Part shown: in pieces, positions 38,658-62,706 of the stretch
How positions within the stretch are numbered: position 1 is the first letter of the stretch
Layout of the letters: every line of letters starts with the position of its first letter
NCBI GenBank assembly: GCA_029210045.1
Contig: JARGNX010000002.1
Coordinates: forward strand, 124,001 to 188,000
Origin: Coxiellaceae bacterium
GTDB lineage: Bacteria; Pseudomonadota; Gammaproteobacteria; Coxiellales; Coxiellaceae
Length of the DNA stretch: 64,000 bases
Direction: 5' to 3'
Program-made: the position numbers and the translations under genes
Notes under the pieces: generated by a model
The model's input: only the letters and a program-made list of their open reading frames with translations
Databases searched by the model: none
What the model was told of the DNA's origin: nothing

Positions 38658-40274
38658 CTACGCAGACGAAATACCATACGACACACCCAGTGCAACAGCC
38701 GGCGCGGCAACAAAAGCACCAACCGTGTAGACTGCAGGAAACCAACGATATTTAGCAGCTAAATCCCCCAAACCTCGTGCACCGCCCAGTAGTTTGTTTC
38801 TCACAGGTTTCACAGGATAAGCTAGCAATGTGCCAATCACATTAAATGCCACATGAGCAAGAGCCACTTGCAGTGCTTGTTTAGGGTGACTGGTCGCCGC
38901 TAAAGCCGCCAACAAACCCGTAACCGTTGTTCCCATATTGGCGCCGAGTGTGAGTGGAAACATTTCTTCTAATGAAACAATACCACCAGCACATAAAGGC
39001 ATCATTGCCGACGTTGTCACCGAACTGGATTGCACCGCAACCGTTAAGCCCGTACCAATCAACATAGTCACCAGTGGATGAAAGCTTAACGCCTTCTTAA
39101 GTCCACGCGCCAAGCCACCCTTCAAAACGTTTTTAAGGTTTTTTACTAAGAAATACAAACAGAAATATAAAATAGTAACCGCACCAAGGGTGCAAACCAA
39201 ACCAGCCGCCGTATCTGACATACCCGCATCTTTTAACCAACCACCTTTAAGCAACGGGTTATCACAAATCGAGTCAACACCGCTACAATCATTTTTTGCA
39301 ATCGCTTTTAGTACTTTCTTATCCACTTGCGCAATATACTTGGCAACATTATCAATAATTTTTTCAGTAATCGGGTTTTTCCATGGTTCACAAGCCCCTT
39401 CACAAGGTTGTGGGTTACCAACCATCCACGCGGTTAGCTCACCCAAAAAGTCAAACCCCCACTGAAATGGTAATAGTGCTGTCACGGTAGCAACATTAAA
39501 TAAATCATGAATAGTCGCACAAGAAAAGCTACGGCGTCTTTCCGCTTGTTGCGATTCTGTTAACTTCGCGCCACGCTTAACGCATAAGCCAGCCCGCTGA
39601 AGCCAGCCTATTGGCTGTTGAGTGGCAGGTAGATGAGGTGCCGGCGCCGTATCATCAGATGCCGATGCCGCTTGCGTCGCATCTTCCTTTCTACCTTTAG
39701 CACTAAACAACGCAACCAATGTATTAGTAACCGTTGTACCTATATTAGCGCCCATAATAGCCGCAATCGCATTTTGTACGCTCATTTCACCAGCGCCCGT
39801 CGCGGCAATAAAGAGAGATGTACTCGTAGAAGAGCTTTGTAATAAAACCGTGGATAAAATACCCACCATCACACCGCTGAATGGGTTATCCACAAAATCA
39901 AACATCTTGGCAGAGTTTTTACCGCCTAGGATTTTCATACCTGTGCCAAGAATTTTTAAACTCAGCATGAAACCCCATAATAATGTGCCGGCATACACAG
40001 CAGATTTAGTTCGTTGCCCGCAACTCAAATGGTTATCCCCCGTCCACTCACGTTGAGCACGCTCTTGCTCGGTTAATGCAGCCTGAGGGCTACCTATCGC
40101 ACCAGCGAACGGTGCTGGTGTACCTTTTGCATCAGCTTCTAAATCCACACCTACTACCCCGTCAATCGGCGCTAGTGCCGCTCCAGCGCCAGGAATAAAT
40201 TCCCCCACATCTTGCTTGGCATCTTGCTCGGGGGTTGAATCGACTTGCTTAGGTTGCGCAGCTGAACGGCTCAT
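38658..40274 (-). CDS. Na+/phosphate cotransporter (NptA/PF02690 family)
   Basis: A 538-residue inner-membrane symporter with two inverted repeats of the Na_Pi_cotrans domain. Each has the QSSS signature: VLLQSSSTSTSLF in the first half and VAVQSSSVTTSAMMPL in the second, each followed by GANIGTT/GANMGTT motifs. About 75 N-terminal residues are hydrophilic, acidic and Ala/Pro-rich before the first membrane segment, longer than in most members, and a hydrophilic Cys-containing loop (PQPCEGACEPWKNP...NDCSGVDSICDNP) lies mid-protein, probably periplasmic and disulfide-bonded. No PhoU domain is fused. It stands alone, convergent with the barrel gene. ATG start. Confidence 0.9.
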   Translation of the reverse strand: MSRSAAQPKQVDSTPEQDAKQDVGEFIPGAGAALAPIDGVVGVDLEADAKGTPAPFAGAIGSPQAALTEQERAQREWTGDNHLSCGQRTKSAVYAGTLLWGFMLSLKILGTGMKILGGKNSAKMFDFVDNPFSGVMVGILSTVLLQSSSTSTSLFIAATGAGEMSVQNAIAAIMGANIGTTVTNTLVALFSAKGRKEDATQAASASDDTAPAPHLPATQQPIGWLQRAGLCVKRGAKLTESQQAERRRSFSCATIHDLFNVATVTALLPFQWGFDFLGELTAWMVGNPQPCEGACEPWKNPITEKIIDNVAKYIAQVDKKVLKAIAKNDCSGVDSICDNPLLKGGWLKDAGMSDTAAGLVCTLGAVTILYFCLYFLVKNLKNVLKGGLARGLKKALSFHPLVTMLIGTGLTVAVQSSSVTTSAMMPLCAGGIVSLEEMFPLTLGANMGTTVTGLLAALAATSHPKQALQVALAHVAFNVIGTLLAYPVKPVRNKLLGGARGLGDLAAKYRWFPAVYTVGAFVAAPAVALGVSYGISSA

Positions 40275-40580
40275 AGAAATTTGTCTCCCACATTTTTCTA
40301 GATTAAAAGAAAAACAAAATACGCAATGTTTATTACAAAAAAAAGAAAGAATTAAATAAAATTATTTTTTGGGCCTGCACCTTGGTATGCAGGGCGAATA
40401 TCTGTGCCTCTTTTACGTAAGTAAAGCACTATCATGTCGTCACTTTTTTCTAATAGGCACCGTCATTGCGAGAAGGCAGAATCGCATTCTGCCGACGCGG
40501 CAACCTCAAAACTTAAGTGGTTTAGTCATGAAGATTGCCGCGCCACTACGTGGCTCGCAATGACATCAATGACAGGATAA
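40275..40580. repeat. Gene-free stretch with repeat family B and a family C fragment
   Basis: No gene recognised. GCCTCTTTTACGTAAGTAAAG near 40407-40427 is a piece of family C (compare 35359). From 40461 to 40565 a family B element runs from CGTCATTGCGAGAAGG to GGCTCGCAATGACA; its centre CTTAAGTGGTTTAGTCATGA is the same as in the 33014 copy while the arms differ. The Na/Pi transporter promoter must lie in the AT-rich 40275-40380 part. Confidence 0.8.
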
Positions 40581-42653
40581 CTAATCTTGCAACAACGAAA
40601 TATCGGCAACCTGCGTAAACAACTGTCTCAACTGCTGTAACATCGCCAAACGATTTGCACGTTTCTTTTTGTCGTCATCCATAATCATCACCTGATCAAA
40701 AAATTCATCCACAGGTTTCTTTAACTCTGATAACTGACTCAATGCCTCGGTATAGTTTGCTTTACCATATAGCGCATCAACACGTTTTGCTTGTTGCGCA
40801 AGTTGTTTTGCTAAACCACTTTCAGCATCACTATCGAATAACGTTTTATCCAAAACCTTTGGAATGGTTTTGCTGTTTTGCTTCTTTAAGATGTTTCGTA
40901 CGCGCTTATTCGCTGCCGCCAAGGTCTGCGCTTCCGGTAGTGACTGGAATTTCTTAACGGCTTGAATACGTAAATCAAAATCCAACGGCTGCGTTGGCTG
41001 TATCGCTGCAACGGACTCAAACACATCCGCGCTAACACCTTGATCCGCATAAAATGCTTTTAAGCGATCAATACAAAAATCAAATGTATTCTGCACAGCA
41101 TCGTCATTTGTTAAAACACCTTTGTAGTTTTTATGCGCTACCTTAATCAGCTCCATCAAATCCAAAGCCATCGGTGTTTCAATTAATATGCGTAACACAC
41201 CCAACGCCGCACGACGTAGTGCAAACGGATCTTTATCACCAGTCGGAATTTGTTTAATGCCGATAATACCTACCAAAGTGTCTAATTTATCAGCAACAGC
41301 AATGCACGCACCCAGAGGGCTGACTGGAATGTTGTCACCGGCAAATTTAGGCGAATATTGCTGCTTAATAGCATCAACAACATTTGGGTCTTCTTTATCA
41401 TGCGTAGCGTAATAAGCGCCCATCGTACCCTGCAGTGACGGAAATTCACCAACCATCTCTGTGAGCAAATCACACTTGGCTAAATTTGCCGCACGCTTGG
41501 CTGATTTTTCATCACAATTTATTTTACGCGCCATCGTCGCTGCCAATAAACCCATGCGATGCGCTTTTTCTGCCAGCGTACCTAATTGTTTTTGAAATAC
41601 CACGCGCTCCAAAGCTTTGCTGTGGCTCGCTAACGGCTGCTTCAAGTCTTGGCGGTAGAAGAAGTCAGCATCAGATAAACGTGCGTTGATGACACGCTCA
41701 TTGCCTTTGACGATTATCTTGGGGTCCTTGCTAACAAGATTACTCACCAAAACGAAGTACGGCTGCAAATTTCCTTGCGGATCCGTCACCGCAAAACATT
41801 TTTGATGTGATTGCATTGAACAAATAAGTGCCTCAGCTGGTACCGCTAAAAAATCGCGCTTAAATTCACCTAACATCACCACCGGCCATTCAACTAATGC
41901 CGTTACCTCAGATAATAAATCTTCGTCCAACACCACCTTGCCGTGTTTTGATACAACCTGACCAATCTGATCAAGAATAATACTTTGACGCTGCTGATAA
42001 TTAGCAATCACCTGACCTTCGTTTTTTAATTGGTCAACATAGTCACTGGCTTGCTCTAAATTAATCGCCTCAGGGTGCATAAAGCGATGACCATACGTTT
42101 TTCGATCGGCTTTTAAATCAAACAAAGTGGCCGGTACCACCTGGCGACCAAATAACATCACCACCCACTTCACTGGTCGCACAAACTGCACATCACTATC
42201 ACCCCAACGCATCGGTTTAGGAATCGGTAGCTGCTTAACTGCTTTTTGTACAATTTCAGGCAATAACTCTGCCGTAGATACCCCCGGCTTATCCACAGTG
42301 CATTGTAAATACGTGCCTTTCTCAGTCTCTACTTTCTCAACTTCATCAACCGAAACGCCACATGAGCGCGCAAAACCCATACAAGCTAATGTAGGCGCGC
42401 CAGTTTTATCATAAGCCGCCGCCGCACTCGGTCCCTGTCGCACTAGCTTACGCGGTGGTTGCTTAACCACCAAGCCATTAATCAATACCGCCAAACGACG
42501 CGGTGTCGCAAAACACTGACTAGCACCAAACTGCAACTCAGCTTTTTGTAAGCCAGATTCAATATGACGCTGCAAAGTCTCTGCCAACATCAATAAAGAT
42601 TTTGGTGGTAACTCTTCACAACCAATCTCAATCAAAAAATCTCTTGTTTCCAT
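40581..42653 (-). CDS. glyS: Glycyl-tRNA synthetase beta subunit
   Basis: The beta chain of the alpha2beta2 glycine-tRNA ligase, providing most tRNA contacts. MxTRDFLIEIGCEELPPKSL, PTPRRLAVLI-type FATPRRLAVLINGL, PKPMRWGD, RFMHPEAI, LLSEVTALVEWPVVMLGEF and NRLAMLQQLRQLFTQVADISLLQD at the end are all family hallmarks. 690 residues is the usual length. It follows glyQ on the same strand but, unlike the common near-contiguous arrangement, a 245-base gap with a repeat separates them. ATG start with a weak upstream site. Confidence 0.97.
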   Translation of the reverse strand: METRDFLIEIGCEELPPKSLLMLAETLQRHIESGLQKAELQFGASQCFATPRRLAVLINGLVVKQPPRKLVRQGPSAAAAYDKTGAPTLACMGFARSCGVSVDEVEKVETEKGTYLQCTVDKPGVSTAELLPEIVQKAVKQLPIPKPMRWGDSDVQFVRPVKWVVMLFGRQVVPATLFDLKADRKTYGHRFMHPEAINLEQASDYVDQLKNEGQVIANYQQRQSIILDQIGQVVSKHGKVVLDEDLLSEVTALVEWPVVMLGEFKRDFLAVPAEALICSMQSHQKCFAVTDPQGNLQPYFVLVSNLVSKDPKIIVKGNERVINARLSDADFFYRQDLKQPLASHSKALERVVFQKQLGTLAEKAHRMGLLAATMARKINCDEKSAKRAANLAKCDLLTEMVGEFPSLQGTMGAYYATHDKEDPNVVDAIKQQYSPKFAGDNIPVSPLGACIAVADKLDTLVGIIGIKQIPTGDKDPFALRRAALGVLRILIETPMALDLMELIKVAHKNYKGVLTNDDAVQNTFDFCIDRLKAFYADQGVSADVFESVAAIQPTQPLDFDLRIQAVKKFQSLPEAQTLAAANKRVRNILKKQNSKTIPKVLDKTLFDSDAESGLAKQLAQQAKRVDALYGKANYTEALSQLSELKKPVDEFFDQVMIMDDDKKKRANRLAMLQQLRQLFTQVADISLLQD

Positions 42654-42780
42654 CTTTTACGCCTTCTGCCTAATTATGTTTCTTAAACCACTCAAACGCC
42701 TCAATTTAGACATTCTTTTCACTTCAGTTTTTTCACAGCTTTCCTACCCTATCATGCAGGCATCCAGGTATTATATCCCT

Positions 42781-42872
42781 GGATCCCGGCTCGGGGGCCG
42801 GGATGACAAAACTACTCTCCGAGATGACAAAACTACTCTCTGGGATGGCAAAATAACTCAGCAAGGTGACAA
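42781..42872. repeat. Family A repeat extended by a 21-bp tandem array
   Basis: The family A core GATCCCGGC...GCCGGGATGACA starts at 42782. From about 42800 its right end is repeated with a 21-base period: GATGACAAAACTACTCTC at 42802 and 42823, GATGGCAAAATAACTC at 42844, and a decayed GGTGACAAC at 42865. It fills the glyQ-glyS gap (42654-42898). Confidence 0.8.
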
Positions 42873-42898
42873 CATCGCCCATCGCTGCGACAAAACCC

Positions 42899-43786
42899 TT
42901 ACACCGTCTCTGCGCATAACGGAAAGCCCAAAGCTTCGCGCGATTCATAATAAGCCGAAGCCACCGATTGCGCGAGTTTGCGTACACGCAAAATAAAACG
43001 CTGACGCTCTGTCACCGAAATCGCTTGTCGTGCATCCAATAAATTAAATGTATGCGAAGCCTTTAACACCATCTCATATGCCACTAATGGCAATGTCTGC
43101 TTAATCAAATGCGCCGCTTGTGATTCGTAAAAATCAAACTGCTTAAATAATGCATCAACGTCCGCATGCTCAAAGTTGTATGTCGACATCTCTACTTCAT
43201 TCTGATGAAACACATCACCATAAGTCACTGGACCCGCTGGTGTTTGCGCCCAAACAATATCAAACATACTGTCAACGCCCTGAACAAACATCGCTAAGCG
43301 CTCTAAGCCATAAGTAATCTCACCAGTCACTGGCCTACACTCCAAGCCACCCACCTGCTGGAAGTAAGTGAATTGCGTCACCTCCATTCCATCTTGCCAA
43401 ACTTCCCAACCCAATCCCCACGCACCTAACGTCGGTGATTCCCAGTTGTCTTCAACAAAACGAATATCATGCACCAACGGATCAATGCCTAATGCGCGCA
43501 ATGAATCTAAATATAATTCTTGAATGTTGTCAGGTGAAGGCTTTAACACCACCTGAAACTGATAATAATGCTGCGTACGGTTCGGGTTGTCACCATAACG
43601 ACCATCAGTCGGGCGACGCGACGGCTGCACAAATGCCGCACTCCACGGCTCTGGACCAATCGCTTTTAAAAATGTCGCTGGGTGAAACGTTCCCGCTCCC
43701 ACCTCCAAATCATATGGCTGTAAAACTACACAACCTTGCTCCGCCCAAAAACGTTGCAACGTCAATATCATCTCTTGAAAAACCAT
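42899..43786 (-). CDS. glyQ: Glycyl-tRNA synthetase alpha subunit
   Basis: The catalytic class II subunit that forms glycyl-adenylate. [31 protein letters not shown] is the invariant opening; [36 protein letters not shown] carries class II motif 2, and [33 protein letters not shown] motif 3. Length 295 is normal. It precedes glyS on the minus strand. Upstream (43787-43967) lie repeats of family A in both orientations. Confidence 0.97.
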
Positions 43787-43858
43787 CTTTTACACCCTTC
43801 TACCTAACCGCTCTTTAAATCACCTTGCTAGATTTAAATAAATACCAAAGCCCAGATA

Positions 43859-43952
43859 CATGGATCCCGGCTCGGGGGCCGGGATGACAAAATACAGTAA
43901 TCATGTACGACTACAAACACGATCCTGTCATCCCGGGCTTGATCCGGGATCC
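43859..43952. repeat. Two family A repeats in opposite orientation
   Basis: One copy at 43861-43892 (GGATCCCGGC...GCCGGGATGACA) and a second, inverted and diverged, at 43927-43952 (GTCATCCCGGGCTTGATCC then GGGATCC). They lie in the 181-base gap between glyQ and the DsbA-like gene and may double as a bidirectional transcription stop. Confidence 0.8.
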
Positions 43953-43967
43953 AGAAACAAAAACTTA

Positions 43968-44762
43968 CTACTTAGCTGCCGCGTTAGTGCTTTGCACTGA
44001 CTTAATCGCCGCTTCTAAACCAGCTTGCGATGTTGCGCCAGGAATAAACTTAAAGTCTGTGCCTGCACGGTTACCCACAATAAATGCTGGCGTACCAACT
44101 AACTGTAATTTCTGCGCCAATTTGAAGTCATCCTTAACTGCTTTATCAATTTCAGGGCTCTTCATGTCTTTAGCTAACTGGGTCATGTTAAGCCCAACTT
44201 TTTTAGCCGCCGCTAACACTTTCGCATTATTCAATGGATTAGCTGTTTTCATTAACGCTTGATGGAATGCTTGGTACTTGCCTTGCTTGTTAGCTGCTAA
44301 CGCTGCTTTCGCTGCAAACTGTGAATCAGCACCAAAGATCGGTAGTTCTTTGTAAACCACACGCAAGTTTTTATTACCAGCCATTACTTTTTCAATCACT
44401 GGCTCCATTTCTTTACAGTGGCCACATTGATAGTCAAAAAACTCAACCAATGTCACGGTACCTTTTGGATTACCGCCAACAGGTGAGTCTGCATTTGCAA
44501 AAATATCATGTGCATTGCTCTTAATTGCCGCCAGCGCCACTGCTTGTTCTTTTTTAGCAGCCTGCTCGCGCAGTTTAACAGAAGCTTCTATCAACACTTT
44601 GGGGTTATTCACAATGTAGTTGTAAATAATTTTATGCATTGCATTAACTTGAGCCGGTGTAAACTCAGCTGAACTCGCTGCTGCCGGTGCCGCTATACCC
44701 GAAGTTAAAAAACCCAACCCTACGCTAGCAATAGCGCCAATTGCAAATTGTCTGAATTTCAC
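43968..44762 (-). CDS. DsbA/Com1-like periplasmic thiol oxidoreductase
   Basis: A 264-residue exported thioredoxin-fold protein resembling Coxiella Com1 and the DsbA2-type proteins of Legionella. A signal peptide (IGAIASVGLGFLTSGIAAPAAA) is followed by a helical N-terminal dimerisation region, then VTLVEFFDYQCGHCKEMEPVIEK with the CGHC active site (Cys near residues 113 and 116) and the cis-Pro loop LQLVGTPAFIVGN. The N-terminal extension before the thioredoxin domain fits dimeric isomerase/oxidase types such as DsbA2 or ScsC rather than monomeric DsbA. GTG start with AAGGA nine bases upstream. It is followed by repeats and preceded by rpoH on the same strand. Confidence 0.9.
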   Translation of the reverse strand: MKFRQFAIGAIASVGLGFLTSGIAAPAAASSAEFTPAQVNAMHKIIYNYIVNNPKVLIEASVKLREQAAKKEQAVALAAIKSNAHDIFANADSPVGGNPKGTVTLVEFFDYQCGHCKEMEPVIEKVMAGNKNLRVVYKELPIFGADSQFAAKAALAANKQGKYQAFHQALMKTANPLNNAKVLAAAKKVGLNMTQLAKDMKSPEIDKAVKDDFKLAQKLQLVGTPAFIVGNRAGTDFKFIPGATSQAGLEAAIKSVQSTNAAAK

Positions 44763-44820
44763 GGTGTAGTTCCTTTGATAGTTTTTGAAAGAATTTAATC
44801 AGGCTCACAATATACGCTTG

Positions 44821-45705
44821 CTAAGCTGTGCCTGCAACCTCACTCATCGCCAGTTGCATTTTTTTCATTGCATTCTTTTCCAGCTGACGCACACGCTCAG
44901 CTGAAATCTGATATTCGGCTGCTAATTCATGTAAGGTTTTTTTGTTCTCACTTAACCAACGATTAGCAATAATAGTACGGCTGCGGTCATCCAATGTGTC
45001 CAACGCCTCATACAATGCCGTTTCTTGCTTGTTACCCCATTCATTATCACTGACTTGTTGCTCAGGATTATTGGAAAGATCTTCAAGTGCATTACCAGGT
45101 GCAACACTTAACCAGTTCTTACTGTCTTCATTATCTTCAGCGGTCACATCAAGCGATTGATCATAATTACTCAAGCGCGCTTCCATTTGCACCACATCCG
45201 CTTTGCTAACATTTAACTCAGTAGCCACGGTTTCAATTTCTGCTTGGCTTAACCAACCCAGCTTCTTTGATGCTTTGCGTAAATTAAAAAATAATTTACG
45301 CTGTGCTTTAGTGGTCGCAATTTTAACAATGCGCCAGTTCTTTAAAATGTACTCATGCATTTCAGCACGAATCCAATGAATGGCAAATGAAACCAGCCTC
45401 ACCCCCACTTCAGGGTTAAAACGCTTCACCGCCTTCATCAAACCAATATTGCCTTCTTGAATTAAGTCTTCTTGTGACAAACCATAACCGCTATAACCAC
45501 GCGCCATGCGAACAACTAAACGTAAATGTGACATCACCATTTTACGCGCAGATTCCAAATCACCAAAATCACGCAGTTTAGTGGCTAAATCCACCTCTTC
45601 TTCTTGTGTTAATAATGGGATGGTATTTACCCAATGGATATAGGAGCTCAGGGTTCCAACGGAAAGCGAACGGTCAAGACAGAGTAAATCTTTCGGCATA
45701 GTCAT
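44821..45705 (-). CDS. rpoH: RNA polymerase heat-shock sigma factor (sigma-32)
   Basis: A 294-residue sigma-70-family factor of the RpoH group. Region 2 has LRLVVRMARGYSGYGLSQEDLIQEGNIGLMKAVKRFNPEVGVRLVSFAIHWIRAEMHEYILKNW with the RpoH-specific wording; the RpoH box is QRKLFFNLRK; region 4 ends with TLHELAAEYQISAERVRQLEKNAMKKM. It directs heat-shock transcription. In related bacteria it follows ftsX; here a GGDEF gene and a 624-base gene-free stretch separate them. ATG start with GAAGAGA upstream. Confidence 0.97.
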   Translation of the reverse strand: MTMPKDLLCLDRSLSVGTLSSYIHWVNTIPLLTQEEEVDLATKLRDFGDLESARKMVMSHLRLVVRMARGYSGYGLSQEDLIQEGNIGLMKAVKRFNPEVGVRLVSFAIHWIRAEMHEYILKNWRIVKIATTKAQRKLFFNLRKASKKLGWLSQAEIETVATELNVSKADVVQMEARLSNYDQSLDVTAEDNEDSKNWLSVAPGNALEDLSNNPEQQVSDNEWGNKQETALYEALDTLDDRSRTIIANRWLSENKKTLHELAAEYQISAERVRQLEKNAMKKMQLAMSEVAGTA

Positions 45706-46329
45706 CGTCTCTTCAATATGATCTTTTTCTAGAGGGTAATTCTAACACCGTTTTTCGCTATTCGCTATGTCATTTCTATTAAATCCGTTGCTCTCTATTA
45801 ATATATTAATAATATCTTAATAGTAGTTAATATAGTACGAGCAAATTCACTTGATAAGCGCTTTTTTATATTTAAAATCAATAGATTATAACGATTTGAA
45901 TCTGTGGATAAATTATTGAATAACTTTGAGTTACCAGGGGGTGAATATGTACAAAATGGGGGGTATTACATTTATCCTAATGTTGTTCTAGTGTCTATAC
46001 GCTAGTTATACACAATAAAATGTGGATAACTTCATTGCTGTGTTTTTTTAAGGCTACGCTGTATAACCAAGCGAGAATGTTGTGGGTAGTCCTGGGGAAA
46101 ACTGATCGTAAGTTTAGGGGCATAGACATATCCCCATTTCATACCCAAGCTATACAAGCATTATTGAGGGGGCTACGCTATTATTTTTTCAGTGTAACAT
46201 ATTGAATATTAAACTAAAATCAAGGTTGCGCACTTATCCACAGGGCCTACTACTATCACTATTATCTTTTAAATAATATATATTTATAGATAGGCGGGAA
46301 AACATCGCTTAGCTTGAAAAAGGGTACAT
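45706..46329. other. AT-rich gene-free stretch with DnaA boxes: candidate oriC
   Basis: This 624-base stretch has no convincing gene. Four matches to the DnaA box TTATNCACA lie in 340 bases: TGTGGATAA at 45903-45911 and 46021-46029 (minus orientation), TTATACACA at 46006-46014 and TTATCCACA at 46234-46242. Near-matches such as TTATCCTAA at 45972 add to these. AT-rich runs flank them (TTAATATATTAATAATATCT near 45798 and AATAATATATATTTATAGAT near 46272) and could unwind. GGCTACGCT is repeated at 46052 and 46171. The combination resembles a bacterial replication origin, though it also contains the rpoH promoter region, and DnaA control of rpoH is an alternative. Confidence 0.55.
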
Positions 46330-47283
46330 ATGAGCAAACAAACCGATAAGCTTACAAACGAATCGCAATCGACTTTTTGGCAATGGGATTTTTTAATGTC
46401 TGATTCATTTGTGTCTTTCTTTGATTTAATTCCAGAAGCTGGAATTATTAGTGATGAGTCAGGCAAAATCATATTAACCAATCAAACCGCACAACGTTTG
46501 TTCAACTATTCGCAAAAAGAGTTTCTTGAGGTAGAAATAGAAGAGTTGGTGCCCCCTAAAATAAAAATAGAACATATAAAAATGAGACGTTGGTTTTTTG
46601 AAAACCCCAAACCTCGTTTTTTAGAAGGGCGTGATTTAGATTTACAAGCGCGTAAAAAGGGCGGTGAGCTATTTCCTATTGAATCCGCGTTATTTGCAAT
46701 TCATACGGACCGAGGGGTGTTGGCAGCTAATTTATTGCGAGATGTCTCGTTTAAAACAGCTGAACAAAAGACGATTACAGAATATGCCTTTGTTGATGCT
46801 TTAACCAATCTGCCAAACTTACGGTTCTTACAAGCCAACTTAAAACGAATAGCAGCCAAAGCGAAACGTCACCAGGAGGCTATTGGTGTTTTATTTATTG
46901 ATTTGGATAAATTTAAGCCCATCAATGATAATCAAGGTCATCAGATTGGTGATGTGATTTTGCAGCAAGTCAGCGCTCGTTTGTTAAGCACTGTTCGTGA
47001 GGAGGACCTGCTGGCTCGTGTGGGCGGAGATGAGTTCATTAGCCTGGTCTACCCTGCAAGTGACACAGATGCGCTCTGTGGCGCAGCACAGCGCATTATC
47101 GACGCTTGTCGGCAACCCTTTGAGGTAGATAACCAAACATTTCAAATTTCAGCGAGTATTGGCGTTTGTATGAGTGAAAAAGGCGATATAGATACACAAG
47201 AACTTATCCACAATGCAGATAAAGCGATGTATCAAGCGAAAGATAAGGGCGGCGACTGCTTTGTGAGCTTCAAAAGTTCTTAA
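46330..47283 (+). CDS. PAS-GGDEF diguanylate cyclase
   Basis: A 317-residue soluble signalling protein. A PAS domain spans about residues 28-135 (PEAGIISDESGKIILTNQTAQRLFNYSQKEF). The GGDEF domain follows, starting DALTNLPNLRFL, with GVLFIDLDKFKPINDNQGHQIGD and the active-site VGGDEF near residue 236. The inhibitory RxxD site is present as REED five residues before GGDEF, so product feedback by c-di-GMP is expected. No EAL domain or membrane segment. It stands between rpoH and ftsX but on the opposite strand; its TAA overlaps that of ftsX by four bases. The PAS ligand is unknown. Confidence 0.95.
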   Translation: MSKQTDKLTNESQSTFWQWDFLMSDSFVSFFDLIPEAGIISDESGKIILTNQTAQRLFNYSQKEFLEVEIEELVPPKIKIEHIKMRRWFFENPKPRFLEGRDLDLQARKKGGELFPIESALFAIHTDRGVLAANLLRDVSFKTAEQKTITEYAFVDALTNLPNLRFLQANLKRIAAKAKRHQEAIGVLFIDLDKFKPINDNQGHQIGDVILQQVSARLLSTVREEDLLARVGGDEFISLVYPASDTDALCGAAQRIIDACRQPFEVDNQTFQISASIGVCMSEKGDIDTQELIHNADKAMYQAKDKGGDCFVSFKSS

Positions 47284-48212
47284 GCTTGGCGCAGAAACTG
47301 ACGTGAAGCAATCCATGCGCCGACTAACCCTAGCAGTCCACAGACAGCAATCATTAGCCAGGCAAATGATGGGCTGAGTAAATGCAGGTTTACTTGGTCA
47401 GCATAAGTGGCGGCGAATTGAGATATAGGGGTAGTCAACCAACGAAACAACAATGTGACCAAGAGTAAGGCAATAGCGCCACCCAGTACGCCATACAGTA
47501 ACCCCCGATATAACATCGGTCGAACAATATATGAAGGCGTTGCGCCAATTAAACGCAATAAACTAATTTCCTGGCAATGATTTTGTAAACTCAGCCTTAT
47601 GGTGTTACCCGTTATTAAAATAACCCCCAAACCAAACACAGCGGCTAGTGCGTAACATACCCGTTTAGCTATCGTCATTAAAAAATAAAACCGTTTTACC
47701 CACAGCTGGTCAATTTGTGCCGTATCTACCCAGGCATTGACCGGTAATGACGCACGTAGGGCTGCAATTTTGGTTGGACTTTGTTGCGAACGCATCGGGG
47801 TAATAACAATAACAGCAGGTAGTGGATTATCCTTTAGTGAGCCGAGCACATTTTCGATACGAGCGACTTTTGCGAATTGCGCGAGCCCCTGGTTGGGAGA
47901 AATATAATGCGCCTGTTGGACCTTAGGATTGCTCTGAAGCTGCTTGATCAATAAGTCAGTCTGTGTGCTCGAGATGTTTTTTTTAAGATACAGCGTAATG
48001 CTTGGCTGATTGTGCCAATGTTGGCTCATTTTTTGTGTTGACCCCAGTAATGTATAAAAACCAATCGGTAATGCCATGGCAATCGCGATCACTAGTAATG
48101 TAGTCAAACTTTGAAATGGTGCGCGTGATAGTTCGCCCAAGGCAAAAAACAAGGCACGCAAATGGCTGGTTAGCCAAAAACTTAAACGACTGTATTGTGC
48201 GTTGTCACTCAT
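47280..48212 (-). CDS. ftsX: Cell-division ABC transporter permease FtsX
   Basis: Inner-membrane partner of FtsE that links the divisome to periplasmic amidase activators. 310 residues with four membrane segments: one after the cytosolic start (LTTLLVIAIAMALPIGFYTLL), a periplasmic domain (SITLYLKKNISSTQTDLLIKQLQ... PLPAVIVITP), and three in the C-terminal FtsX domain (VCYALAAVFGLGVILITGN, EISLLRLIGATPSYIVRPMLYRG). The start overlaps the ftsE stop by four bases, so the two are coupled. Confidence 0.95.
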   Translation of the reverse strand: MSDNAQYSRLSFWLTSHLRALFFALGELSRAPFQSLTTLLVIAIAMALPIGFYTLLGSTQKMSQHWHNQPSITLYLKKNISSTQTDLLIKQLQSNPKVQQAHYISPNQGLAQFAKVARIENVLGSLKDNPLPAVIVITPMRSQQSPTKIAALRASLPVNAWVDTAQIDQLWVKRFYFLMTIAKRVCYALAAVFGLGVILITGNTIRLSLQNHCQEISLLRLIGATPSYIVRPMLYRGLLYGVLGGAIALLLVTLLFRWLTTPISQFAATYADQVNLHLLSPSFAWLMIAVCGLLGLVGAWIASRQFLRQA

Positions 48213-48877
48213 GCGTATTCCCTTTCTTTGCTAACAATTTGCCCCTGATCTAACGTGACAATGCGTTTATCCATGCGGCTAATTAACCCCAGGTCGTGTG
48301 AAGCAATCATAACGGTGACGCCAACCGCATTAAATGCTGCAAATAAATCCATAATTTCTTTGGCTAAGCTGGGGTCGAGATTACCGGTGGGCTCATCGGC
48401 TAATAGAATTGTAGGTTTGGTAATTACCGCACGCGCAATACCAACGCGCTGCTGCTCTCCGGCGGATAATTCGGCTGGATAATGCTTTTCCTTGTGCAAT
48501 AAACCGACTTTATCTAATGCTGCTCGCACTCGGCGGCCAATTTCTTTCGGTTTAAAGCGAGCAATATGCAAAGGTAGCGCAACGTTATTATAAATTGAAC
48601 GATTGGGTAACAATTGCGGGTTTTGAAAGATCATACCGATTTGGCGACGTAACCCAGGAATATGACGCTTGCTGATTTGATTTAAATTTTGACCGTTTAA
48701 TATCAGTTGTCCACGGCTTGGGGACTCCATCATCATAATTAATTTAAGTAATGTGGTTTTACCGGCACCGGAGTGGCCGGTTAAAAAGCACATTTCTGCC
48801 GGTTCTATGTGTAAATTAATATTACTTAGTGCGTGGTGGCCGTTGTAAGTTTTTGTAACATTAATAAACCGAATCAA
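48209..48877 (-). CDS. ftsE: Cell-division ATP-binding protein FtsE
   Basis: ABC ATPase of the FtsEX complex, 222 residues. Walker A GHSGAGKTTLLKL, the Q-loop in IGMIFQNPQLL, signature LSAGEQQRVGIARAV (Ala replaces the usual Gly in LSGGE), Walker B ILLADEPTGNLD and the switch His in IASHDLGLI are all in order. The start is TTG with AAGGAAAG three bases upstream; MIRFINVTKTYNG matches the family start. It is 199 bases downstream of ftsY, the gap holding repeats. Confidence 0.96.
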   Translation of the reverse strand: MIRFINVTKTYNGHHALSNINLHIEPAEMCFLTGHSGAGKTTLLKLIMMMESPSRGQLILNGQNLNQISKRHIPGLRRQIGMIFQNPQLLPNRSIYNNVALPLHIARFKPKEIGRRVRAALDKVGLLHKEKHYPAELSAGEQQRVGIARAVITKPTILLADEPTGNLDPSLAKEIMDLFAAFNAVGVTVMIASHDLGLISRMDKRIVTLDQGQIVSKEREYA

Positions 48878-48956
48878 ATTCTTTCCTTGTCTTAGTGAGC
48901 CTTCAGCGGCGCAATGATTACCATTTTTGCATTGCTACGTCACTTTTGCATAATCA

Positions 48957-49076
48957 TGTCGTTCCTGGCTTTGATCAGGAATCCATACAGCGCAACGCGC
49001 TGTTTTGATCGCTTTGCGATCAATGGATCCCGGCTCGGGGGCCGGGATGACAAGCTCTAGTCCGGGATGACAAACT
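48957..49076. repeat. Family A repeats between ftsE and ftsY
   Basis: A diverged copy starts at 48957 (GTCGTTCCTGGCTTTGATCA then GGAATCC) and a consensus copy at 49024-49053 (GGATCCCGGC...GCCGGGATGACA), whose end is doubled at 20-base spacing (CCGGGATGACAA at 49043 and 49063). The array runs right up to the last codons of ftsY. Confidence 0.8.
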
Positions 49077-50309
49077 CTAGTCATCCTGCCAAAGCGCATC
49101 AACAAAAGTTTGTGCATCAAATGGCTGTAAGTCATCCATCCCCTCACCAACACCAATAAAGCGAATCGGTAATGCTAACTCGCGCGCAATAGCGAATATA
49201 ATACCACCTTTCGCGCTACCATCGAGCTTAGTTATACACAGCCCCGTTACACCAATCGCTTCATGAAATGCCTTAGCTTGGTTTAATGAGTTTTGACCAA
49301 GGCTAGCATCAATGACTAACAAGGTTTCGTGCGGCGCATTTTCATCAAGCTTACTCATTACACGTTTTATTTTTTTTAGCTCTTCCATCAAATTGTGTTG
49401 AGTATGTAAACGCCCCGCGGTATCTGCGATTAACAAATCTTGCTGCTTGGCTTGTGTCGATTGCACCGCATCATAAATAACGGAAGCACTGTCAGCCCCC
49501 GGCTGCTGCGCAATTACCGGCACGTTATTACGCTCCCCCCACGTTTGTAATTGCTCAATTGCTGCGGCACGAAAGGTATCACCCGCCGCGAGCAGTAAGG
49601 TTTTACCCTGTTGTTGGTAATAATGCGCTAGCTTAGCAATGCTTGTCGTTTTACCCGCCCCATTAACGCCCACCATTAAAATGATAAAGGGCTTGTGGGT
49701 AACTTCAAGCGGTTGACTTAGCGGCGCCAATAAATCGAATAACTGCTGCTTAAGTGCTTTAATTAACATTTCCGGGTTGGATAGCTCTTTACGCTTCACC
49801 TGCTTGGCTAAGTTCTGCAAAATTTTCTCACTGGTATCAACGCCGACATCCGCCGTGATTAATACCATTTCTAACTCTTCTAATAATTCATCATCAATGG
49901 TTTTCTTGCCTAAAACCAATGCACCTAGTTTGTCACTAAACTGATTACGGGTTTTGCTCAGTCCCGCCTTCAACCTCCCAAACCATTTCTTTTTATCCTT
50001 CAACTTCGGTGCTGGTTGTTCTGATTCCGCTGAAGACTCTACGGAAGTGTTTTCTTTAAGTTCAGTATCATTTGGGACCTTCGGTTCTTCTGCCTTTGTT
50101 GGTGCTATGGCTAATGACTCTGATGTTGTGTTTTTTTCAGCATCACTATTCTCGTGAGTTGGTTGTTCTGGATGCTTATCTACGGCTTGAGAGGTTTCAT
50201 TCGAATCAGTGTTTTCTTCTGCGTGGATATCAATTTCTTGATCTTGAGTTTGCTCCGGCTGATTTGGCTCAGATACGGGTTTCTTGTTCTTCTTTAAGAA
50301 TTTAAACAT
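49077..50309 (-). CDS. ftsY: Signal recognition particle receptor FtsY
   Basis: SRP-receptor GTPase that docks ribosome-nascent chains at the inner membrane. 410 residues: a charged, acidic A domain (about 1-110, rich in Glu, Thr, Ser), then the N domain (WFGRLKAGLSKTRNQFSDKL) and the G domain with GVNGAGKTTSIAKLA, DTFRAAAIEQL, DTAGRLHTQHNLMEEL, TKLDGSAKGG and FIGVGEGMDDLQPFDAQTFVDALW. ATG at 50309 follows a GGAAA-type site. It heads the ftsYEX block and diverges from the M16 peptidase gene, with a 64-base shared promoter region (50310-50373). Confidence 0.97.
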   Translation of the reverse strand: MFKFLKKNKKPVSEPNQPEQTQDQEIDIHAEENTDSNETSQAVDKHPEQPTHENSDAEKNTTSESLAIAPTKAEEPKVPNDTELKENTSVESSAESEQPAPKLKDKKKWFGRLKAGLSKTRNQFSDKLGALVLGKKTIDDELLEELEMVLITADVGVDTSEKILQNLAKQVKRKELSNPEMLIKALKQQLFDLLAPLSQPLEVTHKPFIILMVGVNGAGKTTSIAKLAHYYQQQGKTLLLAAGDTFRAAAIEQLQTWGERNNVPVIAQQPGADSASVIYDAVQSTQAKQQDLLIADTAGRLHTQHNLMEELKKIKRVMSKLDENAPHETLLVIDASLGQNSLNQAKAFHEAIGVTGLCITKLDGSAKGGIIFAIARELALPIRFIGVGEGMDDLQPFDAQTFVDALWQDD

Positions 50310-50373
50310 TGGGGGTTTCCTGCTATGCTATGTTGCGCGCATTTTAGCACGAATTTGCACAAGGATTAATATT

Positions 50374-51750
50374 TTGGTATTTCGCAAAACACCTCTTTTA
50401 CAGCTCGCGGCTGGGATAATTATTTCCAGCATGCTGTCTTTAACAGCTTGGGCCGACACCACCTTCGATTTGGTACAAACGCAATTGGATAACGGCTTGA
50501 CGGTAATCGTAAAACCCGACCACCGCTCCCCCGTTGAAGTCACTACCGTTTGGTATAAGGTAGGTGGCGCATATGAGCATGATGGGCTAACTGGTATTTC
50601 TCATGTGTTGGAACATTTAATGTTTCAAGGCACTAAAGATGTTCCTGAGGGTGTTTTTTTAAAAAAAATTACCGATGTGGGTGGTCGCTATAATGCAGTA
50701 ACCACTAATGACTATACCAAATACTATGAAGTACTAGCGGCGGATAAGCTTGAGCTCGGGTTAAAGCTCGAAGCGGATCGCATGCATAACTTAGTGCTGA
50801 CACCACACAAAGTAAAAAAAGAACTCAAAGTTGTGCGTGAAGAACGACGCATGCGTACCGATGATAACCCTATGGGGCGAACCTATGAGCGCTTTATGGC
50901 AACATCATTTGTAAATAGCCCATACCATCACCCCGTTGTTGGTTGGGAAACTGATTTAAATCATATGACGGTGGCTAATGTTCGCCAATGGTATAAAGAT
51001 TGGTATCAACCGAATAATGCGGCCATATTAATTGTTGGTGATGTTGATCCACAAAAAACTATTGCGTTAGTAAAAAAATATTTTGGAAAGATTCCACAAC
51101 GTGCCGTGCCACTACTTAAACCGCGCACCGAAATTCCATCCCTAGGTCAAAAGCGGGTAGATGTTGATATTCCTGCGAAAACACCGTGGATGATTATGGG
51201 GTATCACACGCCATCATTGGTGACGATGCCGGAATCAAGTCAAGGTTGGCAAACTTATAGCTTATTAGTCGCCAGCGCGATTTTAGCCGGAGGTGAAAGT
51301 TCGCGCCTATCGCAACAATTAGTGCGCGGCAAACAAATTGCCGCAGGAGCAGATGGCAGCTACGACTTTTTAAGCTTATATACAGGGTTATTTGGTGTGT
51401 ATAGTCTGCCAACGCCTGGTCATACGGTAGATGAATTACGTGCCGCAATATTGGCGCAAATTAGTTTAATGAAAACGCAACCCGTAACACAAAAAGAGCT
51501 TGATCGCGTAAAAGCACAAGTAATTGCGGCCAAGGTTTATCAACAGGATTCGGTTATGGCGCAGGCCGACGAACTGGGAAGTTACTGGGTTGTCGGTCTT
51601 CCGATTGAGCTTAGTAATGAATTTGTTAATGGTATTACATCGGTAAAACCCGAGCAGGTCATGGCAGTACTAAAAAAATATTGTATAAAAACCAATTTAA
51701 CTACAGCGGTTTTACAACCCATCGCTATGTCTACAGGAGCTAAGTCATGA
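50374..51750 (+). CDS. M16 zinc metallopeptidase (active subunit)
   Basis: An exported pitrilysin-family protease of about 458 residues. The signal sequence (VFRKTPLLQLAAGIIISSMLSLTAWA) precedes DTTFDLVQTQLDNGLTVIVKPDHRSPV. The zinc motif HxxEH is HVLEH in GISHVLEHLMFQGT, and the third ligand Glu lies in LELGLKLEADRM. The frame is open from 50284 inside ftsY, but AAGGA eight bases before a TTG at 50374 places the start where the signal peptide begins. It overlaps the second M16 gene by four bases (ATGA). The same pair lies beside rsmD and ftsY in related bacteria. Confidence 0.92.
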   Translation: MVFRKTPLLQLAAGIIISSMLSLTAWADTTFDLVQTQLDNGLTVIVKPDHRSPVEVTTVWYKVGGAYEHDGLTGISHVLEHLMFQGTKDVPEGVFLKKITDVGGRYNAVTTNDYTKYYEVLAADKLELGLKLEADRMHNLVLTPHKVKKELKVVREERRMRTDDNPMGRTYERFMATSFVNSPYHHPVVGWETDLNHMTVANVRQWYKDWYQPNNAAILIVGDVDPQKTIALVKKYFGKIPQRAVPLLKPRTEIPSLGQKRVDVDIPAKTPWMIMGYHTPSLVTMPESSQGWQTYSLLVASAILAGGESSRLSQQLVRGKQIAAGADGSYDFLSLYTGLFGVYSLPTPGHTVDELRAAILAQISLMKTQPVTQKELDRVKAQVIAAKVYQQDSVMAQADELGSYWVVGLPIELSNEFVNGITSVKPEQVMAVLKKYCIKTNLTTAVLQPIAMSTGAKS

Positions 51751-53072
51751 GATTATTAAAAGGCTTATTGCTGTTATGTTTACCGGTATTGGTGATTGCA
51801 AAAACAGACGGCCAGCTTTTAGATATCCAGCAGTGGAAAACCAATAATGGTGTGCCGGTGTATTTCGTGCAAGCACACACTATTCCTATGATTGATCTTA
51901 GTGTGATTTTTGCGGCAGGCTCTCAATATGATAACCAACAATTTGGTTTAGCTAATTTCACCTCATCATTGCTGGGAGAAGGCACTACTACTAAGTCTGC
52001 CAATCAAGTTGCTGATGCCTTTGCATCTGCTGGCGGTATGTTTAGTGTGAATGCAAATCGTGATATGGCTGCAGCTAGTTTGCGCACGTTAACAGATGCA
52101 AAGTATTTTAATAATAATGTTGATACTTTTTTGGATGTGTTAAGTAAGCCAAGTTTTGGTGATAAAGCTGTTGGTCGTGTAAAAAAGCAGTTATTAACAG
52201 CTATAAAAATTAAGCAACAAAATCCTTCGGCGGTGGCTGCGACAGCGTTTTATAAAGCTGTTTATGGTAACGCGCCTTATGGGCATGCAGTTTTAGGTAA
52301 TAGTAAAACCATACAGCACATCGACCGCAAAGCTATTGTTAGTTTTTATCAACAGCATTATGTAGCAGCCAATGCGGTGATTACTTTGGTGGGTGATTTA
52401 ACTGTGGATAAAGCTAAAAATTTAGCTGAAACTATCAGCACGAGCTTGGCTTTAGGTAAGAAAACGAAGCCACATAAAATTACGGCAGCTTTGAAGAAAG
52501 CACAAACAGAAATGATTCCATTTGATGCTCGCCAATCTACGGTTATATTGGGGCAGGTGGGTGTGGTTCCTTATGCGAAAAGCAAAGCCGCATTGAATGT
52601 TGGAAACTTTATTTTAGGTAACCCCGGGCTTGTTTCAGAGTTGGCTCTTGAGTTGCGTCAAAAGCGGGGGTGGGTCTATAGTGTATCGAGCCAATTTAAA
52701 AACCTGCAATTAAAAGGTCCGTTTTATATTGCTCTACAAACTAAGGCGTCACAAACGCAACCGGCATTAAAGTTATCACACAAGTTATTAACAGGGCTCG
52801 TGCAATCTGGGCCGACAGCAAGCCAAGTAAAGTTTGCTAAACAGTCGATGGTAGGCTCTTTCCCCTTAGCTATGAGTTCAAACGCGCAAATCTCTGCTTT
52901 GTTAAAGGGGATTGCATTTTATCAACTACCAATAAATTATTATGATAGCTATTTGAAGCAGCTTAAAAAAGTATCTGCAGCTGACGTGAAAAAAGCACTG
53001 CAATCAGTGATTCATACTAATCGTATGGTGTCTGTTGTTGTTGGTCCGGAGAAAACACATGGCGCGCGTTAA
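51747..53072 (+). CDS. M16-family protein, catalytically inactive partner
   Basis: A 441-residue exported M16 homologue (signal MRLLKGLLLLCLPVLVIA). The domain where HxxEH should stand reads FGLANFTSSLLGEGT, so the zinc ligands are missing. The substrate-binding Arg/Tyr segment of this chain type is kept as ELALELRQKRGWVYSVSSQF. The two chains probably form a heterodimer in which this chain closes the chamber, as in mitochondrial processing peptidase and bacterial pairs such as those of Sphingomonas. AGGAG precedes the ATG. It ends inside the first codons of rsmD. Confidence 0.92.
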   Translation: MRLLKGLLLLCLPVLVIAKTDGQLLDIQQWKTNNGVPVYFVQAHTIPMIDLSVIFAAGSQYDNQQFGLANFTSSLLGEGTTTKSANQVADAFASAGGMFSVNANRDMAAASLRTLTDAKYFNNNVDTFLDVLSKPSFGDKAVGRVKKQLLTAIKIKQQNPSAVAATAFYKAVYGNAPYGHAVLGNSKTIQHIDRKAIVSFYQQHYVAANAVITLVGDLTVDKAKNLAETISTSLALGKKTKPHKITAALKKAQTEMIPFDARQSTVILGQVGVVPYAKSKAALNVGNFILGNPGLVSELALELRQKRGWVYSVSSQFKNLQLKGPFYIALQTKASQTQPALKLSHKLLTGLVQSGPTASQVKFAKQSMVGSFPLAMSSNAQISALLKGIAFYQLPINYYDSYLKQLKKVSAADVKKALQSVIHTNRMVSVVVGPEKTHGAR

Positions 53073-53637: not shown

Positions 53638-53711
53638 TTTTATGCAAATTGAATATTGAACTGGTTTCGTCACTCTTGAGTTCGCTGCGCTTGAATTTCA
53701 ATGTGTACAGG

Positions 53712-53741: not shown

Positions 53742-53769
53742 ATTATAAGTTTGCTAACAAGGATGTAGG

Positions 53770-55840: not shown

Positions 55841-59024
<3,184 letters not shown>

Positions 59025-60122
59025 TTAAGTCAGTGGGGCCGGTTGATTGATTGACAGACACCCATTACTCACAAGGTGTGTTTCGGTAGGTAGGGCATCA
59101 ATAATCGGTTGAAACAGGTGTTGGTGAATGCCAGTTATCAACGTTTGCGCGCTGATTTGCTGTAAAACCTGGGCTAAACACTCAATTTTCTGGCTATCGA
59201 GCTCAGAAACCAAATCATCAATTAAATACACTGGAGTAGTGTGGCTGTGCTGGCTCAGTAATAAGCCTTGTGCAAAACACAGTGCATAAACCGCTAGTTT
59301 CTGCTGGCCTTGGGATAAAACTAAGTGAGCCGGCAGGTCATCCAAATACATTTGCATATCTGCACGGTGAGGCCCTTGTGTGGTGTATCCAACCTGTGTA
59401 TCACGAAAATAACCAGCGTCTAGCGCTTCCGAGAAGCTGAGATCGGTATTCCAACCGGGTTCATAACACAGCTGCAGTTGATAACCATCCAGCAATACGG
59501 CTAACAGCTGCTGCAATACGGGCTGTAAGGCGGCAACATAGCTGGCGCGTAGCTTATGAATACTTTCTGAGTGCAGAATAAGTTCCGGATCCCAGGCACT
59601 GACTTGTTCACGTGAAACACGCTCTTTTAATGCGGCATTACGCTGCTTTAATGATTTTTGTAGCCGTGACCATAGGGGGCCGAACTGCGTATCTTGATAA
59701 AACACACCCCAGTTTAAATGACTACGGCGTAACTTGGGGCCATCAGTAAAGTAACGGTAGCTGGTGGTGGTTAGTAGCTGGCTGGGTAAGTGGGCTGATA
59801 GGGCGGATAAAGAGGTTTTATTGGCGCCGTTGATCTTGATCTGGCTTTTACCAAGCACATTACGCTCATAACCCAATGCAAAGTCTTTACTGCCATGGCT
59901 TAATTCAGTAAATAAAGTGAAGGCTTCGGTGTTGTGTTGAATCAAACGTTCTTGTTGGCTGCTTCGAAACGAACGCCCATACGACAACAAATACACAGCT
60001 TCCAATAGGCTGGATTTACCGGCACCGTTTTCGCCAATGAATAAATTAATGTGTGGACTTAAACACAATTCAGCGTGTGAGATATTGCGAAACTGTTGCA
60101 GTACCAATTTGTTCAGTTGCAT
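59025..60122 (-). CDS. recF: DNA replication and repair protein RecF
   Basis: SMC-like ATPase that loads RecA at gaps, 365 residues. LVLQQFRNISHAEL, Walker A INLFIGENGAGKSSLLEAVYLLSYGRSFR, the signature LSQGQQKLAVYALCFAQGLLL and Walker B PVYLIDDLVSELD are in order. A near-parS sequence (TTGTTCACGTGAAACA, 59604-59619) lies in its coding region. It is 20 bases downstream of dnaN in the usual dnaA-dnaN-recF order. ATG start, no strong ribosome site, suggesting coupling. Confidence 0.96.
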   Translation of the reverse strand: MQLNKLVLQQFRNISHAELCLSPHINLFIGENGAGKSSLLEAVYLLSYGRSFRSSQQERLIQHNTEAFTLFTELSHGSKDFALGYERNVLGKSQIKINGANKTSLSALSAHLPSQLLTTTSYRYFTDGPKLRRSHLNWGVFYQDTQFGPLWSRLQKSLKQRNAALKERVSREQVSAWDPELILHSESIHKLRASYVAALQPVLQQLLAVLLDGYQLQLCYEPGWNTDLSFSEALDAGYFRDTQVGYTTQGPHRADMQMYLDDLPAHLVLSQGQQKLAVYALCFAQGLLLSQHSHTTPVYLIDDLVSELDSQKIECLAQVLQQISAQTLITGIHQHLFQPIIDALPTETHLVSNGCLSINQPAPLT

Positions 60123-60142
60123 TTAAATCTACTATAGTAGCG

Positions 60143-61258
60143 TTAAAGACGCATTGGCATAATCACGTATAACGTAGCGCCATCATCTTCATCGCAGTCA
60201 GATTCAACTAACACACTGCTATTGCTATCAGTAAATGTCAGCTTGATCATGTCGGAACGAATGGTGTTGAGCACGTCAATTACGTAGGTGACATTAAAGC
60301 CGATATCGATTGCCTCTTTATCATAATTGACAGCAATGTCTTCTTCAGCGGCTTCGTGTTCTGGGTTGTTCGCTAAGATACGCAATAAGTTATCATGCAG
60401 CTCGAAACGAACCCCGCGGAATTTTTCATTACATAAAATAGCGGTTCGTTGTAAAGCGGCCTTTAATAGTTCGCGTTCAAGTAATAATACTTTGTTACCA
60501 TTGCGAGGAATAACTCGCTCGTAGTCTGGGAAGCGCCCTTCGATTAATTTAGAGGTAAAAGTGAAATCATCACCAGTAACACGCAAGTGGTTAGTACCAA
60601 TCGATACCTCAACCGGTGTATCGCTGTTATCAAATAAGCGCATTAATTCAACAATACCTTTGCGCGGTACAATAATTTGACTCTGAAACTCATTATGAAT
60701 AGCCGCTGGCGTTTCGCTGAGCGCTAAACGGTGACCATCGGTTGCCACAGCACGTAATTTACCTTGACGAGTTTCTAGCAACAGTCCGTTTAAGTAATAT
60801 CGAACATCTTGTTGGGCGATAGCAAAGTAAGTGCGCTGAAATAACCCGAGTAATTCTTGTTGTGGGATCGTAAATGTTACTTGGCTGCTGTAGTCCTCAA
60901 TATTTGGGAAGTCTTGCGCGGGTAGAGTCATTAAAGTAAAACGACTACGCCCGGATTTAAGCGTCATTTTATCGTTATCTTGCACTAACTCCATCTCTGC
61001 TAGTTCAGGCAGCGAGCGGCAAATCTCCATCAGTTTGCGCCCTGGCAGTGTAATTTGTTCAGCTTCAGTATCGTTATGTAACGCCGACTGACCAATGACT
61101 TCGACTTCGAGGTCGGTACCGGTAATCGATAAGGTGTTTTGTTGTGCTTTTAATAACACATTCGACAGAATAGGTAGCGTTTGTTTTTTTTCTACCACAC
61201 CCATGACACGTTGTAACGGTTCTAATAAAGTTTCGCGTTGTAATTGAAGCTTCATCAT
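60143..61258 (-). CDS. dnaN: DNA polymerase III beta sliding clamp
   Basis: Ring-shaped processivity clamp. LQRETLLEPLQRVMGVVEKKQTLPILSNVLL opens the first domain; GRKLMEICRSLPE, TLPAQDFPNIE, RYYLNGLLLE, VATDGHRLALS, PRKGIVELMRLF and the C-terminal LYVIMPMRL are diagnostic. About 371 residues, normal. TTG, ATG and ATG are consecutive codons at the start; AGGAG eight bases before 61258 favours that ATG. It lies 14 bases downstream of dnaA. Confidence 0.98.
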   Translation of the reverse strand: MMKLQLQRETLLEPLQRVMGVVEKKQTLPILSNVLLKAQQNTLSITGTDLEVEVIGQSALHNDTEAEQITLPGRKLMEICRSLPELAEMELVQDNDKMTLKSGRSRFTLMTLPAQDFPNIEDYSSQVTFTIPQQELLGLFQRTYFAIAQQDVRYYLNGLLLETRQGKLRAVATDGHRLALSETPAAIHNEFQSQIIVPRKGIVELMRLFDNSDTPVEVSIGTNHLRVTGDDFTFTSKLIEGRFPDYERVIPRNGNKVLLLERELLKAALQRTAILCNEKFRGVRFELHDNLLRILANNPEHEAAEEDIAVNYDKEAIDIGFNVTYVIDVLNTIRSDMIKLTFTDSNSSVLVESDCDEDDGATLYVIMPMRL

Positions 61259-61272
61259 CAAAGATACTCCTG

Positions 61273-62706
61273 TTAAGCCGATAAGATCCGCAAAAGATTT
61301 TTATAGTCTTCTTGTATATCTAAACTGCTGTTCAACAGTTCAGCAATTTTACGACAAGCATGTAATACGGTGGTATGATCACGACCGCCGAAGGCATCGC
61401 CAATTTCTGGAAGACTATGATTTGTAAGCTCTTTTGATAGCGCCATCGCAACTTGGCGAGGCCTTGCTATTGAGCGGCTGCGTCGTTTAGACAGCAGGTC
61501 TGCAATCTTAATTTTGTAATATTCGGCAACCGTACGCTGGATATTTTCCATTGTTACTAGCTTAGCTTGCAGTGTTAATAAGTCTTTCAGTGCCTCACGA
61601 GCGAAATCAATAGTAATTGGCTGACCAGTAAAGTGAGAATTCGCGATAACTCTTTTTAGCGCGCCTTCTAATTCACGTACATTCGACTGAATGTGTTTAG
61701 CTATGAAAAAGGCTACCTCATGCGGCAATTGCGTTTTCGATTGCTCTGCTTTGGTCATTAAAATAGCAACACGCGTTTCTAATTCGGGTGGTTCGATCGC
61801 AACCGTTAATCCCCAGCCAAACCGCGATTTCAAACGCTCTTCTAACCCTTTAATTTCTTTAGGGTAGCGATCACAGGTCAAAATGATTTGTTGTTGGCTA
61901 TCCAATAGCGCGTTAAAGGTATGGAAAAACTCTTCTTGAGAGCGATCTTTACCGGCAAAGAATTGGATGTCGTCAATTAAGAGGCAATTAACGCCACGGT
62001 AATAGCGTTTGAATTCGTTCATCGCATTGCGTTGCAGCGCTTTAATCATATCAGCAACAAAGCGTTCTGAGTGCAGGTACAGTACCTTGGCTTCAGGGTT
62101 GTGTTGTTGGATAAAGCTGCCGACCGCATGAGCCAAGTGAGTCTTACCTAAACCAACACCACCATATAAAAACAGTGGATTATAGGCCTGCCCAGGGTTT
62201 TCAGCCACCTGCATGGCAGCCGCACGTGCTAATTGGTTAGATTTACCTTCAACAAAGTTATCAAACACAAAATTCGGATTAAGATTGGAACGAGTTGGGC
62301 CTGAGGGCGCGACTCGACGATTACTCGCAGCTACACTGGTAGCCACGCGCTGTTCTGCTGGTGCGCGTGTTTGCTGGGTTGTTGCTGTTGCCGTAGGTGC
62401 GTTAGTTTGGTTGTTATTGCTACCGCCTCCGCCATTACCACCTTGTCGGCTGCCTATCACTAAACGCACGGATGGTGCTTCGCCGTTCGACAGCTCATCC
62501 AGCAGCTGCTTAATACGGGCTATGTATTTGTCGTTAACCCAGTCAATCACAAAACGGTTTGGTGCATACAACACGAGGCAGTTACCTTCCTGCATTTGCT
62601 GCAACGGCCTAATCCACGTGTTGAATTGTTGCTCTGGAATTTCTTCGTGCAGGCAGCTTAAGCATTGCTCCCACAGCTCGGCAACAGTTGTTATTGATGC
62701 GTTCAC
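61273..62706 (-). CDS. dnaA: Chromosomal replication initiator DnaA
   Basis: AAA+ initiator that binds DnaA boxes and opens oriC. Domain I is [25 protein letters not shown]; a low-complexity Asn/Thr/Ala/Gln linker follows (about residues 95-150). Domain III has Walker [16 protein letters not shown] near 181-195 and Walker [14 protein letters not shown]; domain IV ends with [40 protein letters not shown], the DnaA-box-binding signature. 477 residues. GTG start with AAAGGAAAA upstream. It heads dnaA-dnaN-recF. Confidence 0.98.

Follow-up and report, generated by a model that had tools for sequence, protein, structure and literature searches.

A probable DnaA-type chromosomal origin beside rpoH, away from dnaA, in a genus of Coxiellaceae

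With a probability of about 0.92, the gap of 624 bases that separates rpoH from a PAS-GGDEF gene is the chromosomal replication origin (oriC) of this Coxiellaceae genus. It would be an origin of the DnaA type and ordinary in its parts; only its place is unusual. An earlier note on this DNA had proposed the gap as a candidate origin, and the proposal is now supported by the position of the GC-skew minimum, by a V-shaped skew in two congeneric species and by a change-point analysis.

The window analysed here is a stretch of 64,000 nucleotides (positions 124001-188000 of contig C13 in genome G000), and its numbering is used for all coordinates unless another is named. It lies inside a contig of 294,747 bp, which belongs to a 25-contig, 2.81-Mb metagenome draft from a member of the Coxiellaceae. 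Two other species of the same genus, G001 and G002, served for comparison; both are metagenome assemblies (records JARGPC01 and JARGOB01).

Sequence elements of the rpoH-GGDEF gap

The gap has a GC content of 33% and lies 16 kb from dnaA. Its counterparts in G001 and G002 are found in the same gene context and are 78-80% identical to it. According to the earlier note it contains no gene, four DnaA boxes within 340 bases and AT-rich runs on both sides, and all three observations hold. No ORF of more than 65 amino acids overlaps the gap, and the frames of the smaller ORFs found there are not conserved in the three-species alignment. An Rfam search of the gap for structured RNA gave no match, and promoter and terminator scans of it gave no excess over shuffled sequences.

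Exactly four perfect TTATNCACA sites are present, spanning 340 bases (Table 1). The same sequence occurs 145 times in the 2.81 Mb of the genome, and a Poisson estimate from this density gives about 1e-4 expected clusters of this kind per genome, so that the cluster is well beyond chance. On the 295-kb contig, the gap is the only place with at least three boxes in 400 bp, and the homologous gap is likewise the only such cluster on the contig stretches of G001 and G002. The homologue of the box at 46234 has one mismatch in G001, which counts against the reading as an origin. The DnaA protein of this genome has kept the GGRDHTT signature of box recognition. Facing box pairs also occur elsewhere in the genome, with a spacing of 5 bp and of the type TTATCCACA N5 TGTGGATAA.

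Table 1. Features in and around the rpoH-GGDEF gap (window coordinates, except for the last row)
Feature	Position	Strand	Remarks
Proposed oriC, intergenic between rpoH and PAS-GGDEF gene	45706..46329	.	skew minimum, sole DnaA-box cluster, conservation
rpoH (sigma-32), left flank	44821..45705	-	TIGR02392
PAS-GGDEF gene (diguanylate-cyclase-type), right flank	46330..47283	+	TIGR00254, TIGR00229
gyrB, recF, dnaN, dnaA block	55841..62706	-	head-on to the proposed rightward fork
Second AT-rich block	45790..45846	.	some 55 bp with few or no differences among the three species
DnaA box TTATCCACA	45903..45911	-	identical in G001 and G002
DnaA box TTATACACA	46006..46014	+	TTATGCACA in G002, TTACACACA in G001
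DnaA box TTATCCACA	46021..46029	-	faces the 46006 box, 6 bp apart; identical in G001 and G002
DnaA box TTATCCACA of the unwinding element	46234..46242	+	identical in G002; TTACCCACA in G001
GC-rich 4-bp spacer GGGC	46243..46246	+	GGCC in the relatives
Three DnaA-trios CTACTACTA	46247..46255	+	other strand 3'-GATGATGAT-5'; CTATTACTA in G001
Proposed DNA unwinding element	46259..46288	.	lowest stability of any 30 bp in the window; almost unchanged across the three species
Facing box pairs elsewhere in G000	C2:43245-43267; C8:327792-327814; C17:178739-178761		

The gap is surrounded by a halo of further boxes. Counting all boxes no more than 10 kb away, the gap included, gives 12, 15 and 11 for the three genomes, compared with 0.7-1.2 per 20 kb on the remainder of the contigs. 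In G000, four of the 12 are those of the gap and the other eight (window 39886-54424) are satellites, most of them within genes or near them; those to the left of the gap are on the + strand, and the three outermost to the right are on the - strand. All eight of these satellite boxes are found at homologous places in G001 and six of the eight in G002, where the surrounding DNA is about 70-89% identical. This conservation suggests selection.

The published rules for a basal unwinding system (BUS) ask for a DnaA box, a short spacer rich in G and C, three or more DnaA-trios no farther than 16 bp away, and AT-rich DNA (PMC8287927, PMC6669920). At its right end the gap has the sequence TTATCCACA-GGGC-CTACTACTA-TCACTATTATCTTTTAAATAATATATATTTATAG, which places a box no more than 16 bp from at least three trios; the spacer is 4 bp long and the trios number three in all three species. 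The order of box, spacer, trios and AT-rich DNA is also kept in all three, and the middle base of the trio is conserved despite the change to CTATTACTA in G001. The AT-rich element at 46259-46288 adjoins the box. It and the stretch 45795-45824, at opposite ends of the gap, are less stable than any other 30 bp of the entire window. The block at 45790-45846 may be a second unwinding element, the rpoH promoter region, or both; in this genome it is flanked by TTGCTC/GAGCAA arms.

Given these elements, initiation would begin with the binding of DnaA to the four boxes. From the box at 46234-46242, DnaA would then cross the GC-rich spacer onto the trios (46247 onward), the AT-rich element would be opened and helicases would be loaded. 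The leftward fork would pass through rpoH-dsbA-glyQS and the rightward one through GGDEF-ftsXEY-gyrB-dnaA, so that the dnaA operon would be copied head-on.

Several other features of the gap were noted. Between 45940 and 46175 there are G-runs and a GGGG...CCCC inverted repeat, which are conserved (AGGGGGTGAA, ATGGGGGGT, TTTAGGGGCATAGACATATCCCC) and are a possible site for another regulator. An origin of the SeqA/Dam type was rejected, as the gap has no more than two GATC sites. One match to the IHF consensus, at 45876, was discarded; its core bases are lost in both relatives. In a genome of another genus (G012, contig C58; locus L004, 1501-1548), a stretch of 45 bp is 83% identical to window 46195-46239. 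This stretch precedes a GGDEF-EAL gene and has no DnaA box, and it was therefore rejected as an origin; possibly it is a shared promoter of GGDEF genes.

Strand asymmetry and alternative positions

The cumulative GC skew was followed on contig stretches of 130-400 kb and has its minimum at or near the gap. On the 294,747-bp contig of G000, one of the 25 in the draft, it declines steadily, reaches its only minimum at position 169603 of the contig (45603 of the window) and then rises; this minimum is some 100 bp from the gap. A minimum lying elsewhere is what the earlier note had named as the result that would speak against its proposal. The minimum of G001 (130 kb), at 64525, is again about 100 bp from the homologous gap; that of G002 (400 kb) is at 658658, inside ftsY and 3.6-4.2 kb beyond the gap (654425-655048).

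To separate the effects of replication from those of gene strand, a change-point model with a term for the coding strand was fitted to the fourfold-degenerate sites. The best position scored above the rpoH gap by 1.7, 0.9 and 2.3 quasi-log-likelihood units in the three genomes; in G000 and G002 this position was about 4 kb to the right of the gap, at the ftsY/peptidase boundary. When all third codon positions were used, the rpoH gap was more than 4 units worse in G000 and G002 and the best position in G001. To the right of the gap the skew is near zero as far as dnaA. The rightward change-points of G000 and G002 and this near-zero skew count against an origin in the gap. The skew resolves the switch to only about 4-6 kb.

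An origin a few kb to the right, near ftsE-ftsY or the ftsY/peptidase boundary, would agree with the best change-point of G000 and G002 and with the raw skew minimum of G002. However, the ftsE-ftsY gap (199 bp, 49% GC) contains no strict box and one one-mismatch site, the ftsY and peptidase ORFs overlap and leave no gap at all, and the third codon positions of G001 favour the rpoH gap. As a result, the rpoH gap is the only place with origin features in the switch stretch of about 6 kb, and we consider a more rightward origin very unlikely.

The same low probability is assigned to the classical location of the origin, upstream of dnaA or between gyrB and recF, which would reduce the rpoH gap to a DnaA-regulated promoter or a DnaA-titration site. 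It is general knowledge that dnaA, dnaN, recF and gyrB are common neighbours of origins, and the region upstream of dnaA does contain one strict and one one-mismatch box; the gyrB-recF gap contains no strict box and one one-mismatch site. Both locations had been called poorer before, and the box counts bear this out. There is no box cluster and no skew switch by dnaA or gyrB-recF, and in the fourfold-site fit the three genomes put the gyrB-recF gap 16-20 and the dnaA-upstream gap 17-24 quasi-log-likelihood units behind. The classical site was rejected on these two grounds, too few boxes and the change-point; moreover, two other genera have their skew minimum by rpoH and their dnaA elsewhere (see below).

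A DnaA reservoir of the datA kind, or a regulatory region, close to the origin but distinct from it, is favoured by the many boxes around the gap and by the promoters that the gap must also carry, because rpoH and the GGDEF gene start there in opposite directions, but titration has no need of a trio array and an unwinding element, which are nevertheless among the best conserved parts, and the skew minimum coincides with the gap, so that we give this the least weight of all.

Left of the gap, 92 of the 141 genes in the contig are read leftward, in line with the earlier observation that most are, as expected of a leading strand; right of it, 45 of 100 are on the + strand, which is no bias. The dnaA-gyrB genes are indeed on the lagging strand, as had been pointed out with some reservation. 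At their fourfold sites, the skew of the + strand is weakly positive or near zero, just as in the rest of the right arm, and their position is therefore no objection to an origin in the rpoH gap. Further left in the window, about 20 leftward genes of low GC content (0.32-0.42) form a long run from 1700 to 29100, which ends at a large + strand ORF at 29272.

The rpoH neighbourhood in other Coxiellaceae and known origins

The gene order glyS-glyQ-dsbA-like-rpoH-ftsX-ftsE-ftsY-gyrB-recF is largely common to the family, and dnaA is about 11-23 kb from rpoH in many Coxiellaceae genomes. An origin-like site was found 3' of rpoH in five genomes from two other genera (G004, G015, G030, G029 and G011). 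It consists of a pair of boxes at a distance of 53-54 bp, with TATTAACAAC as spacer, on the side of rpoH that faces the dsbA-like gene, and in G004 (CTACTATTACTG) and G015 (CTACTATTACTACTA) the pair is followed by trios. In G029 and G011, dnaA is 50-100 kb away, and a local skew minimum lies about 2.2 kb or less from rpoH and 1.2-1.5 kb from the box pair. Since skew minimum and box pairs stay by rpoH despite this distance, the anchor of the origin seems to be rpoH and not dnaA; the evidence from these two genomes is moderate because the amplitude of the skew is small. The site thus resembles the gap in its adjacency to rpoH, its DnaA boxes, its trios (G004, G015) and the nearby skew minimum (G029, G011). 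It differs in being on the opposite side of rpoH, in having two boxes and in showing no clear sequence homology. A search for the strict pattern of box and trios across the order, which comprised the family Coxiellaceae only, gave matches just in this genus and in G004. In G016, a complete genome of 1.0 Mb, flat skew extends over a broad region and no cluster of boxes was found.

In Escherichia coli, oriC is located between mnmG/gidA and mioC. Both this origin and the gap are gammaproteobacterial and off dnaA; the gap differs in its neighbours, rpoH and a GGDEF gene, and in having no GATC cluster of the SeqA/Dam type. The E. coli origin has been described as having moved away from dnaA (PMC6669920). 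With the basal unwinding system of Bacillus subtilis oriC the gap shares the box, the GC-rich spacer, three or more 3'-GAT-5' trios and the AT-rich stretch (PMC6669920, PMC8287927). Unlike in B. subtilis, there is a single box instead of a tandem pair at the predicted unwinding site, and the location is away from dnaA. Within the same family, an autonomous replication sequence of Coxiella burnetii was reportedly cloned in 1994 (Suhan 1994, cited in PMC10315504). The fragment is reported to be small and to have DnaA boxes and repeats rich in A and T; it reportedly lies by rpmH-rnpA and is not known to start replication of the chromosome.

Nearness to dnaA is the usual guide in origin prediction, and the numbering of complete genomes often starts at this gene. 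Among the open-access papers searched, no description of an origin beside rpoH was found. We see roughly even chances that the origin of the Coxiellaceae is anchored to rpoH instead of dnaA, that it has crossed rpoH between genera (3' in two, 5' here) while dnaA drifted or came to be head-on, and that it carries a selected halo of DnaA boxes, which may tune initiation. With an origin tied to rpoH and dnaA-gyrB on the lagging strand, the family would be a test case for origins that move by single genes, and the gap provides a concrete fragment for tests of activity in the laboratory.
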